Source: an uncultured Pedosphaera sp.
GTDB taxonomy: Bacteria; Verrucomicrobiota; Verrucomicrobiia; Limisphaerales; Pedosphaeraceae
NCBI GenBank assembly: GCA_903918755.1
Contig: CAIXFN010000046.1
Span: 1 to 64,000, forward strand
DNA: 64,000 nucleotides
Direction: 5' to 3'
Shown: in pieces, positions 55,768 through 62,327 of the stretch
Position numbering within the stretch: position 1 is the first letter of the stretch
Layout: each line of letters starts with the position of its first letter
Translations under genes and position numbers: made by a program
Notes under the pieces: generated by a model
The model's database searches: none
Told to the model about the DNA's origin: nothing
The model's input: the letters and a program-made list of their open reading frames with translations, nothing else

Positions 55768-58317
55768 TCATGGCTTGGTCAATCGGCGGACATCGCCGGT
55801 CCTTCCGGAGGGGCCCAGCGCGGTCGATGACAGGACGTAAATTTCTCCCGCTTCATCCTCGCCGAACCCCTTGAGGAAGCGTCCCAAGCGGGCGTTGGCG
55901 GGCCAGAGTTGAACGGGAAAGCGCTCCCAAATTCCCGGGCGGGTTTGGGCGAGGTAATAGATTTGCCCGTCCGGACTGCCGAAACTCGTGCTGAAATCAC
56001 CAAAGACGTAAAGTCCATTCAAGGCGGGATAATTTGTCCCCCGATAAACGTAGCCGCCAATGACCGCGATTCCCACCGGCCCGTGGCCGTATTCGTGAAT
56101 GGGCTGATCCAGAGTCGTCACGTCCACCGCCAGTCTACCCGCCACGGTCGTATCAAACGCATGGCTTCCTTCCAGAATCCGCCACCCGTAGTTGGCCCCT
56201 TTGCGCAGAAGATCGATTTCCTCCCATAGATTCTGTCCCACATCGGCGATAAATCCTTGATGGGTGCCGCCCCGGTCAAAGGAAAACCGCCAGGGATTGC
56301 GCAGACCGTAGGCGAAAATCTCCGGCCGGGCGCCCGGGGTGCCGATGAACGGGTTATCCTGCGGGATGCCGTACGGTGAACCGGAATCGACATCCAGACG
56401 CAAGATCTTGCCTAAGAGCGTTGCCAGGGATTGACCATTTCCCGTGGCACCGTGTTGGTCCCCGGCGCCACCCCCGTCTCCCGGTCCAAGGTAGAGATAG
56501 CCATCCGGGCCGAAGGTGATGTCGGCACCCTCATGATTGAACTCCGGCTCGTTAATCGTCAGGAGAATCCGCTCGCTGGTGGAATCCGCCTGGTTGGGAT
56601 TGCCGGTGGAAACCCGGAATTCCGAGAGCACCGTGACATTGTCGTAATTGGTCGCGGGTGAAGGGGCGGAATAATAGACAAAAAACCGGCCATTCGTCGA
56701 GTAGCCGGGGTGGAACGTCAAGCCCAACAAGCCCCGCTCATCATAGCCTGATTGTAACGAAGCAAGGCGGTTAGAGATGTCAAGGAAGGGGGTTGGGAGC
56801 AGATTTCCAGCGGCGTCGACAATGCGGATTTGACCAATTTGATCGGCAATGAACAACCGCCCGGAGCCGTCATGGGCGTGGGTCAAAACCGTGGGAGAAA
56901 CCAGATTGGTGGCAACCGTCTGCAAGCGGATGGCCAACCCCGGACTTTGGGACGGCAACGCATTCATCCGGTAGAACAAATTCGTATTGGGTCCGTAAGC
57001 GGAGCTGGCCAGGAAGGGCGGATCGGTCAAGGTGTTGGTGCCCGAGGGATCGCCGACAATGTTGGGTTGTGCGAGGCGCCAGAGGCCCCCGGCCTCGAGA
57101 TGGTCGGCGAAAAGCAGGTCAAACCGACTGCGGGTGTCGCCGGTCCACCGCAACGTGTCCAGACCGTTGGTTATAATGGGGACGTTCGCCACCGAAAGTG
57201 GGGGGCTCGGGTATTTATTGGTTACCGACAAGCTGATGAAACTGGGGGCCGACGGAGTTCCGGCGGCCAGAACGGTTACCGCCACCGCAGTCGTGGTGCT
57301 GGTGCCTCCGGAGTTGTCGGCGGCCACGGCCCGCAGGCTGTGGCTTCCCACCGGCAGGGGGGTGAGCAAGCTGAACGGGGGGGCGGAAACGTGCCCGAGG
57401 GAAGCGCTGTTGTCAAAAAACTCCACGTTCGTCACGCTGCCGTCCGCGTCACTGGCGTTTGCTGCCAGAATCAACGTGGCCGGTGCGGTGTAAATTGCTC
57501 CATTCGTCGGGGTGATGAAACCGACCGAAGGAAGCGTGTTTGCGATCACCGTGATGGTGACGGGAGCGGAGGTGCTCGTGGCCCCGCCATTATCCGTGGC
57601 CACGGCCAGCAAAGTGTGGCTGCCCGCGGCGAAGTTCGTCGTGGTGCGGAAGGGGTTGGCCGCTACGGACCCCAGCAAGGTTGTCCCCTCAAAGAATTTG
57701 ACGTTCGTGACCGAGCCATCCGAATCCGTTGCAGAGGCCGCGATCGTCACGCTCGCGGGAGCGACGAAGGTGGCTCCACTGGTTGGGTTGGTGATGGTCA
57801 CCGAAGGCGGAACATTGGCGGCCGGGGGAGTGGCCCGGTCATAGGAATATGGACCGAAGGTACCCCAGGAGGTGAACACGATATCCACATAAATGTCCTC
57901 GGAGACCAGGTGGACGACGGCCGGCACACCGATGGTGCCCGGCGGGCCGCCATGCAGGTTTTTGGACCAGGTGTTCCAATCTGTGAAGGACAAATTTCGG
58001 TAATTCGCGGTGGTTCCGTCCGCCCAAAGCGTGTCTTTTGGACTGAGGAAGTGGGTGAATCCACTCTCCGTTTTGGCGTTGTAAAGTCCCTGGGAACCTC
58101 CCCGCGTGAGCCACACTTTGGTTGTCATTTGATCGGGGTCCGTCACATCGCTCACGCTGATTTTGGGCCCATTCCAAATGGTGGCGGCGGGAGAGAGACC
58201 GGGGCGCGCCAGTCCGAGCAGGAGCAGGAGTCCCAGGGCCATGCCACGGTGCGGTGCGTTCCGGGATTTGGATTTTGCTAGGTTTTGCAATTTGGTCATA
58301 ACGAGAGGCTTATCCAT
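55768..58317 (-). CDS. PQQ-type glucose/sorbosone dehydrogenase with Ig-like domains, secreted
   Basis: 849 residues. Signal segment (MALGLLLLLGLARPGLSPAA); a small beta-rich module (about 45-170, with LWADGTTANYRNLSFTDWNT); two Ig-like domains (PPSVTITNPTSGATF and LPSVGFITPTNGAIY, each with SDGSVTNV(K/E)FF); a short linker module ending NLFYRMN; and a C-terminal GSDH beta-propeller (about 500-849) with RGLLGLTFHPGY, EFNHEGADITFGPDG, YGLRNPWRFSFD and DVGQNLWEEID. The family oxidises sugars using PQQ and needs Ca2+. I chose ATG 58317, near the signal; the frame runs up to 58491. Divergent from the ECF sigma gene, with an inverted repeat between. Confidence 0.88.
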   Translation of the reverse strand: MDKPLVMTKLQNLAKSKSRNAPHRGMALGLLLLLGLARPGLSPAATIWNGPKISVSDVTDPDQMTTKVWLTRGGSQGLYNAKTESGFTHFLSPKDTLWADGTTANYRNLSFTDWNTWSKNLHGGPPGTIGVPAVVHLVSEDIYVDIVFTSWGTFGPYSYDRATPPAANVPPSVTITNPTSGATFVAPASVTIAASATDSDGSVTNVKFFEGTTLLGSVAANPFRTTTNFAAGSHTLLAVATDNGGATSTSAPVTITVIANTLPSVGFITPTNGAIYTAPATLILAANASDADGSVTNVEFFDNSASLGHVSAPPFSLLTPLPVGSHSLRAVAADNSGGTSTTTAVAVTVLAAGTPSAPSFISLSVTNKYPSPPLSVANVPIITNGLDTLRWTGDTRSRFDLLFADHLEAGGLWRLAQPNIVGDPSGTNTLTDPPFLASSAYGPNTNLFYRMNALPSQSPGLAIRLQTVATNLVSPTVLTHAHDGSGRLFIADQIGQIRIVDAAGNLLPTPFLDISNRLASLQSGYDERGLLGLTFHPGYSTNGRFFVYYSAPSPATNYDNVTVLSEFRVSTGNPNQADSTSERILLTINEPEFNHEGADITFGPDGYLYLGPGDGGGAGDQHGATGNGQSLATLLGKILRLDVDSGSPYGIPQDNPFIGTPGARPEIFAYGLRNPWRFSFDRGGTHQGFIADVGQNLWEEIDLLRKGANYGWRILEGSHAFDTTVAGRLAVDVTTLDQPIHEYGHGPVGIAVIGGYVYRGTNYPALNGLYVFGDFSTSFGSPDGQIYYLAQTRPGIWERFPVQLWPANARLGRFLKGFGEDEAGEIYVLSSTALGPSGRTGDVRRLTKP

Positions 58318-58397
58318 TAATATTTCGTCGGTTTTGGGTTCCGCTGTGGAATCTGACACCCAACGGCTTGCACGAGGGTAGGAGTGGCCGGCGCGGG

Positions 58398-58441
58398 ATT
58401 TGTTCCCGGAGATTTCAGGATTGTGATTCCCGGGAACAAAT
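58398..58441. promoter_or_regulatory. perfect 12-bp inverted repeat between divergent genes
   Basis: ATTTGTTCCCGG (58398-58409) and CCGGGAACAAAT (58430-58441), 20 bp apart. Each arm, read outward, has GGAAC, the usual -35 core of ECF sigma promoters, 42 bp before the sigma gene and 86 bp before the dehydrogenase start. I see no convincing -10. It could be a bidirectional ECF promoter or an operator for a dimer. Confidence 0.55.
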
Positions 58442-58477
58442 GCTCGACTGGCGCCTCGAACAATTGATGAACATGGT

Positions 58478-58999
58478 ATGGCGGAAAGCATAGATTTTGA
58501 GAGCTTGGTGACCCGGTTTTACGGGCCGCTCTACCAGTTCGCCTTCAGCCTGAGCCGTTCCGAGGCGGACGCCTGCGATCTGACGCAACAGGCCTTCACG
58601 ATTTGGGCGGCCAAAGGGAAGCAATTGCGGGATACCTCCAAAGTGAAAACATGGCTTTTCACCACGCTTCACCGGGAGTTTCTCAATTCCCGCCGGCGCC
58701 AGACCCGTTTTCCCCATGCCGAGCTGGGGACGGTGGAGGCGGAACTGCCCACGGTTTCGCCGGCCTCGATGAACCGGCTTGATTCATCCCAAGTTGTCGC
58801 GACTCTGGCCCTAGTGGATGAGGTGTTTCGCGCCCCGGTGGCGCTGTTTTACCTGCAGGACTATTCGTACCTGGAAATCGCGGAAATTCTGGGAGTGCCC
58901 CTGGGAACCGTCAAGTCGCGCCTGGCGCGCGGCATCAGTCAATTGCAACAACTTTTGGCGCGCGATATCGCCGCCGACCGATCGCCCCCCCAATTGTGA
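58478..58999 (+). CDS. ECF-type RNA polymerase sigma factor
   Basis: 173 residues. Region 2: FYGPLYQFAFSLSRSEADAC, DLTQQAFTIWAAKGKQLRD and KTWLFTTLHREFLNSRRR. Region 4: LDEVFRAPV-like VDEVFRAPVALFYLQDYSYL, then EIAEILGVPLGTVKSRLARG, the -35-binding helix-turn-helix. No region 1.1 or 3, as expected for ECF. Its stop overlaps the start of the next gene (GTGA at 58996), a membrane protein that is probably its anti-sigma factor. The upstream inverted repeat contains GGAAC and may be its own promoter. Confidence 0.93.
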   Translation: MAESIDFESLVTRFYGPLYQFAFSLSRSEADACDLTQQAFTIWAAKGKQLRDTSKVKTWLFTTLHREFLNSRRRQTRFPHAELGTVEAELPTVSPASMNRLDSSQVVATLALVDEVFRAPVALFYLQDYSYLEIAEILGVPLGTVKSRLARGISQLQQLLARDIAADRSPPQL

Positions 59000-60979: not shown

Positions 60980-62011
60980 TCACTTGCCGGGCAGGGGCAC
61001 CGTGGCAATGGTCTGCAGGATGCGGCCAGCGATTTTGTACGGGTCGCCCTGTGAATTCGGCCGGCGGTCTTCCAGATACCCTTTGTAACCATTGTTGACA
61101 AAGCTGTGCGGGACGCGCACGGAGGCGCCGCGATTGGCGATGCCGTAGTTAAACTTGTCAATCGACTGGGTTTCATGCAGCCCGGTGAGGCGGAGATGGT
61201 TGTCCGGCCCGTAAACTGCAATGTGTTCGTTCTTGTATTTGTCGAACGCGGCCATGAGGGCTTCAAAGTAGGCCTTGCCGCCGACTTCGCGCATGTACTT
61301 GGTGGAGAAATTGGAGTGCATCCCGGAACCGTTCCAGTCGACATCCTTGCCCAGCGGCTTGCAGTGCCAGACGACGGTGACTTCGTACTGTTCGCAGAGG
61401 CGCATCAGGAGGTAACGGGCCATCCACATCTGGTCGGCGGCCGTTTTCGAGCCTTTGCCGAAGATCTGGAATTCCCACTGGCCCTTGGCCACTTCGGCGT
61501 TGATGCCCTCGTGGTTGATGCCGGCATCCAGGCAGATGTCCAAGTGGGTGTCCACGATTTCACGGGCGATTTCGCCCACGTTTTCATAGCCCACACCGGT
61601 GTAGTACTTGCCTTGGGGAGGGGGGAAACCGCCGCCCGTGGGGAAGCCCAGGGGGACGCCGTCACGATACAGAAAATACTCCTGCTCGAAGCCAAACCAG
61701 GTATCGGGGTCATCCAGGATCGTGGCGCGGGCGTTCGTCGAATGCGGGGTCTTGCCATCCGGCATCATGACTTCGCACATTACCAACACGCCGTTCTTCT
61801 TCGTCGGATCGGGATACACCGCCACGGGCTTGAGCATGCAATCCGAGCTGTGGCCTTCGGCCTGGCGGGTCGAGCTGCCGTCAAATCCCCACATGGGGAG
61901 CTGTTCCAGGGTCGGGAAGGCATCGAAATCCTTGATCTGGGTCTTGCCACGGAGGTTGGCGACGGGTTCGTAGCCGTCCAGCCAAATGTATTCGAGTTTA
62001 TATTTCGCCAT
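60980..62011 (-). CDS. glnA: glutamine synthetase, GSII (eukaryote-like) type
   Basis: 343 residues, far shorter than GSI (about 470) and right for GSII. Makes glutamine from glutamate, ammonia and ATP. Signatures: [11 protein letters not shown] (beta-grasp), [39 protein letters not shown] and [16 protein letters not shown] (catalytic domain with metal and ammonia-site residues). GSII is decameric and not adenylylated, so control would be at transcription. It reads leftward, ends in an intrinsic terminator, and has a sigma-54 promoter match upstream. The other side of the upstream gap holds the kinase-like gene. Confidence 0.94.
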
Positions 62012-62327
62012 GTCTGTAATGGTAAGAAGTTATTGTTGTACTATTGTTGATTTCCACTGTCCGACTTCGTCAGTGGTGATCCAATTAGCACATGAAGTGC
62101 CAGTTCGGAAGAAAAATTTCGCGGCCGCTCAAAATGTTCTTCTGGACCGAAATTCCCTCCGAAAATGCGTTGGCAAAATTCACTGTCCGGGCCTCGAGGG
62201 GGTAGATCGCGTTGGTCAATTTTGCACACGCTGCCTAATTTGAATCCAATTGGTTGACCTCGTGCAGCGTTTTCTGGCAAGGAGAAGGCTTTGCAGTTCG
62301 TCGCGGTTACGGCATATTGCCGCACAC
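62012..62327. other. 316 bp divergent gap between glnA and the kinase-like gene
   Basis: It holds the sigma-54 promoter for glnA (62089-62103). I find no clear NtrC site, no hairpin and no convincing promoter for the rightward gene. Confidence 0.6.
62089..62103 (-). promoter_or_regulatory. sigma-54 (-24/-12) promoter of glnA
   Basis: On the minus strand: TGGCAC TTCATG TGC, that is GG at 62102-62101 and GC at 62090-62089 with exactly 10 bases between them. TGGCAC is a full match for the -24 element; the -12 element is GTGC against TTGC. The start site would be near 62077, giving a 65-nt leader to ATG 62011. Position and gene (glutamine synthetase) fit nitrogen control. Confidence 0.72.

Follow-up and report, generated by a model that had tools for sequence, protein, structure and literature searches.

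A conserved sigma-54 promoter and a divergent kinase–phosphatase pair as candidate two-layer control of a verrucomicrobial GSII-type glutamine synthetase

The gene for a GSII-type glutamine synthetase (glnII) in an uncultured Pedosphaera species was found to lie behind a conserved sigma-54 promoter and beside a divergent pair of genes predicted to encode a very small kinase and a PP2C-type phosphatase (Table 1). The best explanation of this arrangement, to which we assign a probability of roughly 55 %, is that glnII belongs to a sigma-54-dependent nitrogen (Ntr) regulon and that the divergent pair acts, most likely, on GSII itself. The sigma-54 promoter would set the amount of GSII, and the kinase–PP2C pair would set its activity as a second, post-translational layer. 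The wider proposal, that the tiny kinase, paired or fused with PP2C, reversibly phosphorylates bacterial GSII across the class in place of adenylylation by GlnE, is put forward more tentatively, at slightly under even odds. Coordinates refer to the window, the whole stretch of 64,000 nucleotides of contig CAIXFN010000046.1 that was analysed.

Table 1. Features of the glnII region of the window
Feature	Position	Strand	Basis
glnII, GSII-type glutamine synthetase, 343 aa	60980..62011	-	Profile and end-to-end structure-neighbour alignment
Divergent intergenic region, glnII to mini-kinase gene	62012..62327		Counterpart region examined in 84 loci
Sigma-54 -24/-12 promoter TGGCACTTCATGTGCT	62087..62102	-	Upstream of glnII; sequence match and conservation across relatives
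Predicted minimal kinase-fold protein, 132 aa	62328..62726	+	Invariant K22, E36, H95, D97, N102, D116; fold model
Predicted PP2C-type Ser/Thr phosphatase, 287 aa	62719..63582	+	Start overlaps kinase gene end; metal-ligand Asp 33, 67, 231, 277

The first-pass annotation had placed a sigma-54 promoter in front of a GSII glutamine synthetase. The identity of the enzyme was borne out by end-to-end alignment with solved GSIIs (E 2.2e-91 to 4bax), although its score against the NCBIfam GlnII model, 374 bits, lay below the cut-off of 500. The other GS-family protein of the window's genome scored below every cut-off and adjoins dehydrogenase-like ORFs as judged by eye, and from these comparisons the glnII product appears to be the main glutamine synthetase of this genome. 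The annotation had also assumed that the enzyme escapes adenylylation, and this premise agreed with the gene content, in that no GlnE was found in the window's genome. The only match to PF03710 was GlnD (662.6 bits, over a cut-off of 519.4), and GlnE was rejected as a rival control of glutamine synthetase on that ground. A second GSII gene, 86 % identical, was located on contig C86 of the same genome (L150:3308-4342, minus strand), with neither a sigma-54 site nor a kinase pair beside it, which weighs against the proposed coupling. By eye, ORFs downstream of this copy resemble a TIR-domain protein, a formylglycine-generating enzyme and an IS21-type transposase. Elsewhere in the window, the minus strand at 55768-58491 holds a large ORF that, as read from its translation, looks secreted, has repeated Ig-like segments and resembles a glucose/sorbosone dehydrogenase towards its end.

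On the minus strand, TGGCACTTCATGTGCT has its -24 T at 62102, GG at 62101-62100, GC at 62089-62088 and its last T at 62087. The exact GG-N10-GC spacing and the complete TGGCAC box that had been claimed for this site were both confirmed, with a single mismatch in the -12 box (GTGCT for TTGCW). The range originally given, 62089-62103, identified the right site with ends one to two bases off. The earlier estimates of about 90 bp to the start codon and of transcription beginning near 62077 also held, as the glnII ATG at 62011 was counted to be 91 nt downstream of the -24 T and the implied start site agrees. When TGGCACN5TTGCW was searched with at most two mismatches, the 64 kb window yielded 37 matches against 36 expected from shuffled sequence. 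Since such a match is no commoner than chance, the case for a promoter rests on its position and its conservation.

For the conservation analysis, 83 GSII loci were fetched, of which four had too little upstream sequence and were dropped, leaving 79 to be scored. A TGGCAY-N6-TGCW site with at most about one mismatch was present within 200 bp before the glnII start in 73 of them, comprising 64 of the 69 non-alphaproteobacterial and 9 of the 10 alphaproteobacterial loci. The corresponding controls gave a mean of 1.4 and a maximum of 5 for first-order Markov shuffles, 0 for the reverse strand and 1 for the region from -400 to -200. The scoring consensus had been adjusted to this form after an early look at the loci, and a sample of 288 Verrucomicrobiota genomes, consisting mostly of fresh loci, provided the cleaner test. 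Here the site preceded glnII in 54 of the 58 genomes with GSII (shuffles mean 0.9, maximum 4; reverse strand 0), the four without it being G117, G281, G208 and G060. Among the aligned sites of the 79-locus set, flanking positions hold almost no information; the near-invariance of the boxes is partly by construction, as the scan demanded GG, GC and a high score, and the weight is therefore carried by the counts relative to shuffles. The frequency of matches within the window would be compatible with a chance occurrence of TGGCAC and a different promoter driving glnII, but the site is kept at -67 to -142 across the scored loci and at -75 to -137 across the genomes, and we regard this reading as extremely improbable. 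Judged by its conservation, the nitrogen-type sigma-54 promoter before glnII is real, in agreement with the first-pass annotation and with the comparison of relatives that it had suggested. The promoter resembles that of rhizobial glnII. NtrC control of Bradyrhizobium japonicum glnII was reportedly described in a 1988 study, and the alphaproteobacterial loci that scored here carry the TGGCAC-type site about 80–110 bp before the GSII start.

A sigma-54 promoter had been taken to imply RpoN and an NtrC-type activator in this organism. A single copy of rpoN was indeed detected in the window's genome (profile search, 8e-59). It was present in 282 of the 288 phylum genomes and was for that reason dropped as a discriminator; the association of GSII with the kinase pair does not follow rpoN. 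The genome encodes 18 strong Sigma54_activat (PF00158) proteins; as this profile also matched in all 14 control genomes and is not specific by itself, the GAFTGA-like motif was used instead and was found in 17 of the 18. The expectation of an activator stood as far as enhancer-binding proteins are concerned. The response regulators nearest to NtrC, L085 and L086, one encoded on contig C72 and the other on C30, scored 514.4 and 501.4 bits against a model cut-off of 558.6.

Across the genome, TGGCAYN6TGCT showed a weak excess, with 50 matches versus 37 for the reversed pattern. Four of the sites precede PII or ammonium-transporter genes (C14:10195, C14:14825, C17:131058 and C34:144946), two transporters and two PII genes being checked; one further site lies before a histidine kinase/response regulator pair on C72. 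Seven PII-family hits were obtained in the genome, four of them with sigma-54 sites before the gene itself or its operon. The combination of rpoN, the GAFTGA-type activators and the four PII/transporter sites looks like an Ntr regulon, and sigma-54 nitrogen control is well supported. An NtrC-like activator would probably turn on glnII under nitrogen shortage. Seven PII hits is a large set relative to the 288-genome sample. A PP2C-like ORF (L146:7872-9632) was seen by eye between two sigma-54-preceded PII genes on C14, and four TGGCAYN6TGCT matches fall on both strands within about 3.2 kb of C10 (L155:2650-5858).

No conserved dyad that could serve as an activator site stood out in the 84 divergent glnII–kinase intergenic regions, and GCAC-Nn-GTGC (n 3–11) gave four matches in all of them together. 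The hexamer CTTGCC occurred in 39 of the 84 regions (shuffles mean 10.3, maximum 19). Many copies lie about 30–40 nt upstream of the start of the kinase gene, and some lie at -9 from the -24 box; on account of these positions it was set aside as an activator site and would better fit a -35-like element. In one subgroup (L006, L013, L018, L021, L025, L029 and similar loci), CTTGCC is found some 9 nt upstream of the -24 box and is followed, after about 17 nt, by a hexamer rich in T and A. This arrangement overlaps the sigma-54 promoter and is possibly a second promoter, of the sigma-70 type.

The neighbourhood of glnII was compared among 64 non-alphaproteobacterial loci with at least 1.5 kb of upstream sequence. 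The kinase–PP2C pair lies divergently beside glnII in 48 of these and in the same direction as glnII in two (L081 and L082); 14 loci had no pair beside glnII, which counts against the coupling, and among their genomes the window's own (L004) was the one scanned whole. The glnII locus of the cultured Chthoniobacter flavus (L009) carries both the sigma-54 site and the pair. The search for the kinase beyond the phylum covered the ten alphaproteobacterial loci, and none of them had the pair beside glnII. In the 288-genome sample, 94 members of which belong to the window's class, the kinase was found in 52 genomes, always as one copy, GSII in 58 and a close PP2C in 50. The two kinase genomes G238 and G241 have a diverged PP2C between the kinase and glnII, so that a PP2C accompanies the kinase in all 52. 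This set coincides with the GSII-bearing members of the class: GSII, kinase and PP2C occur together in 52 of the 94 class members, and the other 42 have neither GSII nor kinase. The kinase occurred without GSII in none of the 288, and the six genomes with GSII and no kinase are all outside the class.

Part of this co-occurrence may be due to common descent. Because the kinase and the close PP2C are limited to one class in the sample and mostly adjoin glnII, the three genes could be an old cluster, inherited and lost together with no functional coupling, in which case the sigma-54 promoter alone would matter. This is very unlikely, as 9 of the 52 genomes have the kinase unlinked from glnII, five of them with the PP2C unlinked as well, and all nine keep the three genes. 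Moreover, families f3, f5 and f11 each include genomes with all three genes and genomes with none, and fusions and rearranged operons recur. Kinase and PP2C are fused in nine distinct ORFs of 398–417 residues from three groups (three Spartobacteria loci, genus g14 and genus g42), and some genomes have all three genes in the same orientation, in the order kinase–PP2C–glnII, the sigma-54 site again lying directly before glnII. The best explanation of the pattern is that kinase and PP2C form a putative obligate functional unit with GSII across the class. The earlier argument that transcriptional control matters for an enzyme without adenylylation therefore stands with respect to the promoter and is probably incomplete as a whole, given a kinase–phosphatase pair tied to GSII.

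The kinase residues listed in Table 1 were invariant in all 49 aligned homologues, and we take them to be the beta3 Lys, the alphaC Glu, the HxD motif, the Asn and the Asp of the DF(E/G) motif. The fold model of the 132-residue protein was very confident (pLDDT 95, pTM 0.87). Its C-lobe is short, which hints that the fold may be completed by a partner. The nearest solved fold by Foldseek was Ark1, with Bud32/PRPK and RIO also among the neighbours, and VIA-align placed protein kinases and Bud32 level with Ark1. In Pfam, the matches were APH and Kdo. The protein is thus predicted from sequence and model to be a kinase of the protein kinase superfamily fold with its catalytic set intact. It shares this compact fold with Bud32/PRPK, RIO and Ark1 (Foldseek E-values of around 1e-5 to 2e-6; VIA Z-scores of about 11–13), but is only about 15–25 % identical to them, is still shorter and, in the phylum sample, is confined to genomes with GSII. 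In the phosphatase, D33, D67 and D231 were present in 107 of 107 aligned sequences and D277 in 106. The window's PP2C scored 61 bits against PP2C_2 (cut-off 24), and its nearest NCBIfam models were the Stp1/IreP protein Ser/Thr phosphatases (173 bits, below the cut-off of 230).

The substrate of the pair is most likely GSII, as suggested by gene association. No class-specific Ser/Thr/Tyr column was found in GSII when 119 class sequences (L004, L050 and L107 left out) were compared with 16 from genomes outside the class, a comparison that counts all non-alphaproteobacterial class loci as pair-bearing, only some of those genomes having been scanned whole; R330 alone differed between the two sets. 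GSII as the substrate is therefore deduced from the association of the genes alone. Thr276, in the RLTG motif of the glutamate flap, was present in every one of the 136 aligned GSIIs, whether or not the pair accompanies them, and 17 other Ser/Thr/Tyr positions were conserved at 98 % or more. The flap Thr301 of mammalian glutamine synthetase presumably sits in the same RLTG motif; the likeness stops at the distribution of the residue, which here is independent of the pair. PMC6536897 describes inactivation of the mammalian enzyme by a PKA phosphate on Thr301 and states that prokaryotic glutamine synthetases lack the PKA consensus sites of that enzyme.

The same lack of a class-specific phosphosite would also suit a pair that phosphorylates RNA, a metabolite or another protein relevant only when GSII is the main synthetase, with GSII providing the genetic context. 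Ark1 is an RNA kinase, and APH and Kdo are small-molecule kinases, which point in that direction, but the partner or fusion domain is a PP2C closest to protein phosphatases and the level VIA-align ranking favours protein kinases as much as Ark1. We consider a substrate of this kind unlikely. PII, or another protein of nitrogen signalling, is a more doubtful candidate still. This reading would keep the promoter and direct the pair at PII, as in some cyanobacteria, where the phosphatase PphA acts on phosphorylated PII in nitrogen control and the PII kinase is unknown, according to PMC4285133. The PII hits of the window's genome, with their sigma-54 sites, would also suit it, but the kinase follows GSII exactly and PII poorly: PII was detected in 210 of the 288 genomes without tracking the pair, G147 has kinase, PP2C and GSII with no detected PII, and the window's genome encodes GlnD, an enzyme that modifies PII in other organisms.

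With GSII as the preferred target, the mini-kinase would phosphorylate and the PP2C dephosphorylate the enzyme, as a GSII counterpart of GlnE for GSI. The class-wide tie of the pair to GSII speaks for a post-translational layer of control in addition to the promoter. No sigma-54 site was found for the kinase–PP2C genes beside glnII, which suggests that kinase and PP2C are probably produced at a steady level against which their target is induced.

Parts of this proposed system resemble known ones. PphA is itself a PP2C, and shares with the verrucomicrobial protein a place in nitrogen control; the verrucomicrobial system differs in having a candidate kinase and in its association with GSII rather than PII. 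AceK joins kinase and phosphatase activities for isocitrate dehydrogenase in one protein directed at one metabolic enzyme, comparable to the nine fusion ORFs. Unlike AceK, the verrucomicrobial system combines a separate predicted kinase, about 125 residues long, with a PP2C domain and has GSII as the candidate substrate, and no AceK model was among the Pfam or NCBIfam matches of either protein. The rhizobial glnII system has a similar promoter, but the ten alphaproteobacterial loci lack the neighbouring pair, whereas the GSII of the window appears to be the main glutamine synthetase of a genome in which GlnE was not detected. Open-access literature searches surfaced no description of the kinase–PP2C–GSII arrangement, which is not proof of its absence. 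The sigma-54 promoter of glnII therefore belongs to a well-known kind, and the linked kinase–PP2C–GSII unit would represent a new form of reversible enzyme phosphorylation.

Glutamine synthetase guards the entry to nitrogen assimilation and is the textbook example of an enzyme under covalent control. A kinase and a phosphatase whose presence and absence follow those of GSII offer a concrete, testable answer to how bacteria reliant on GSII adjust its activity. The kinase of about 125 residues, with its full catalytic set, would serve as a minimal kinase model, and TGGCAY-N6-TGCT provides a regulon-level motif of nitrogen control for a phylum that has received little study.
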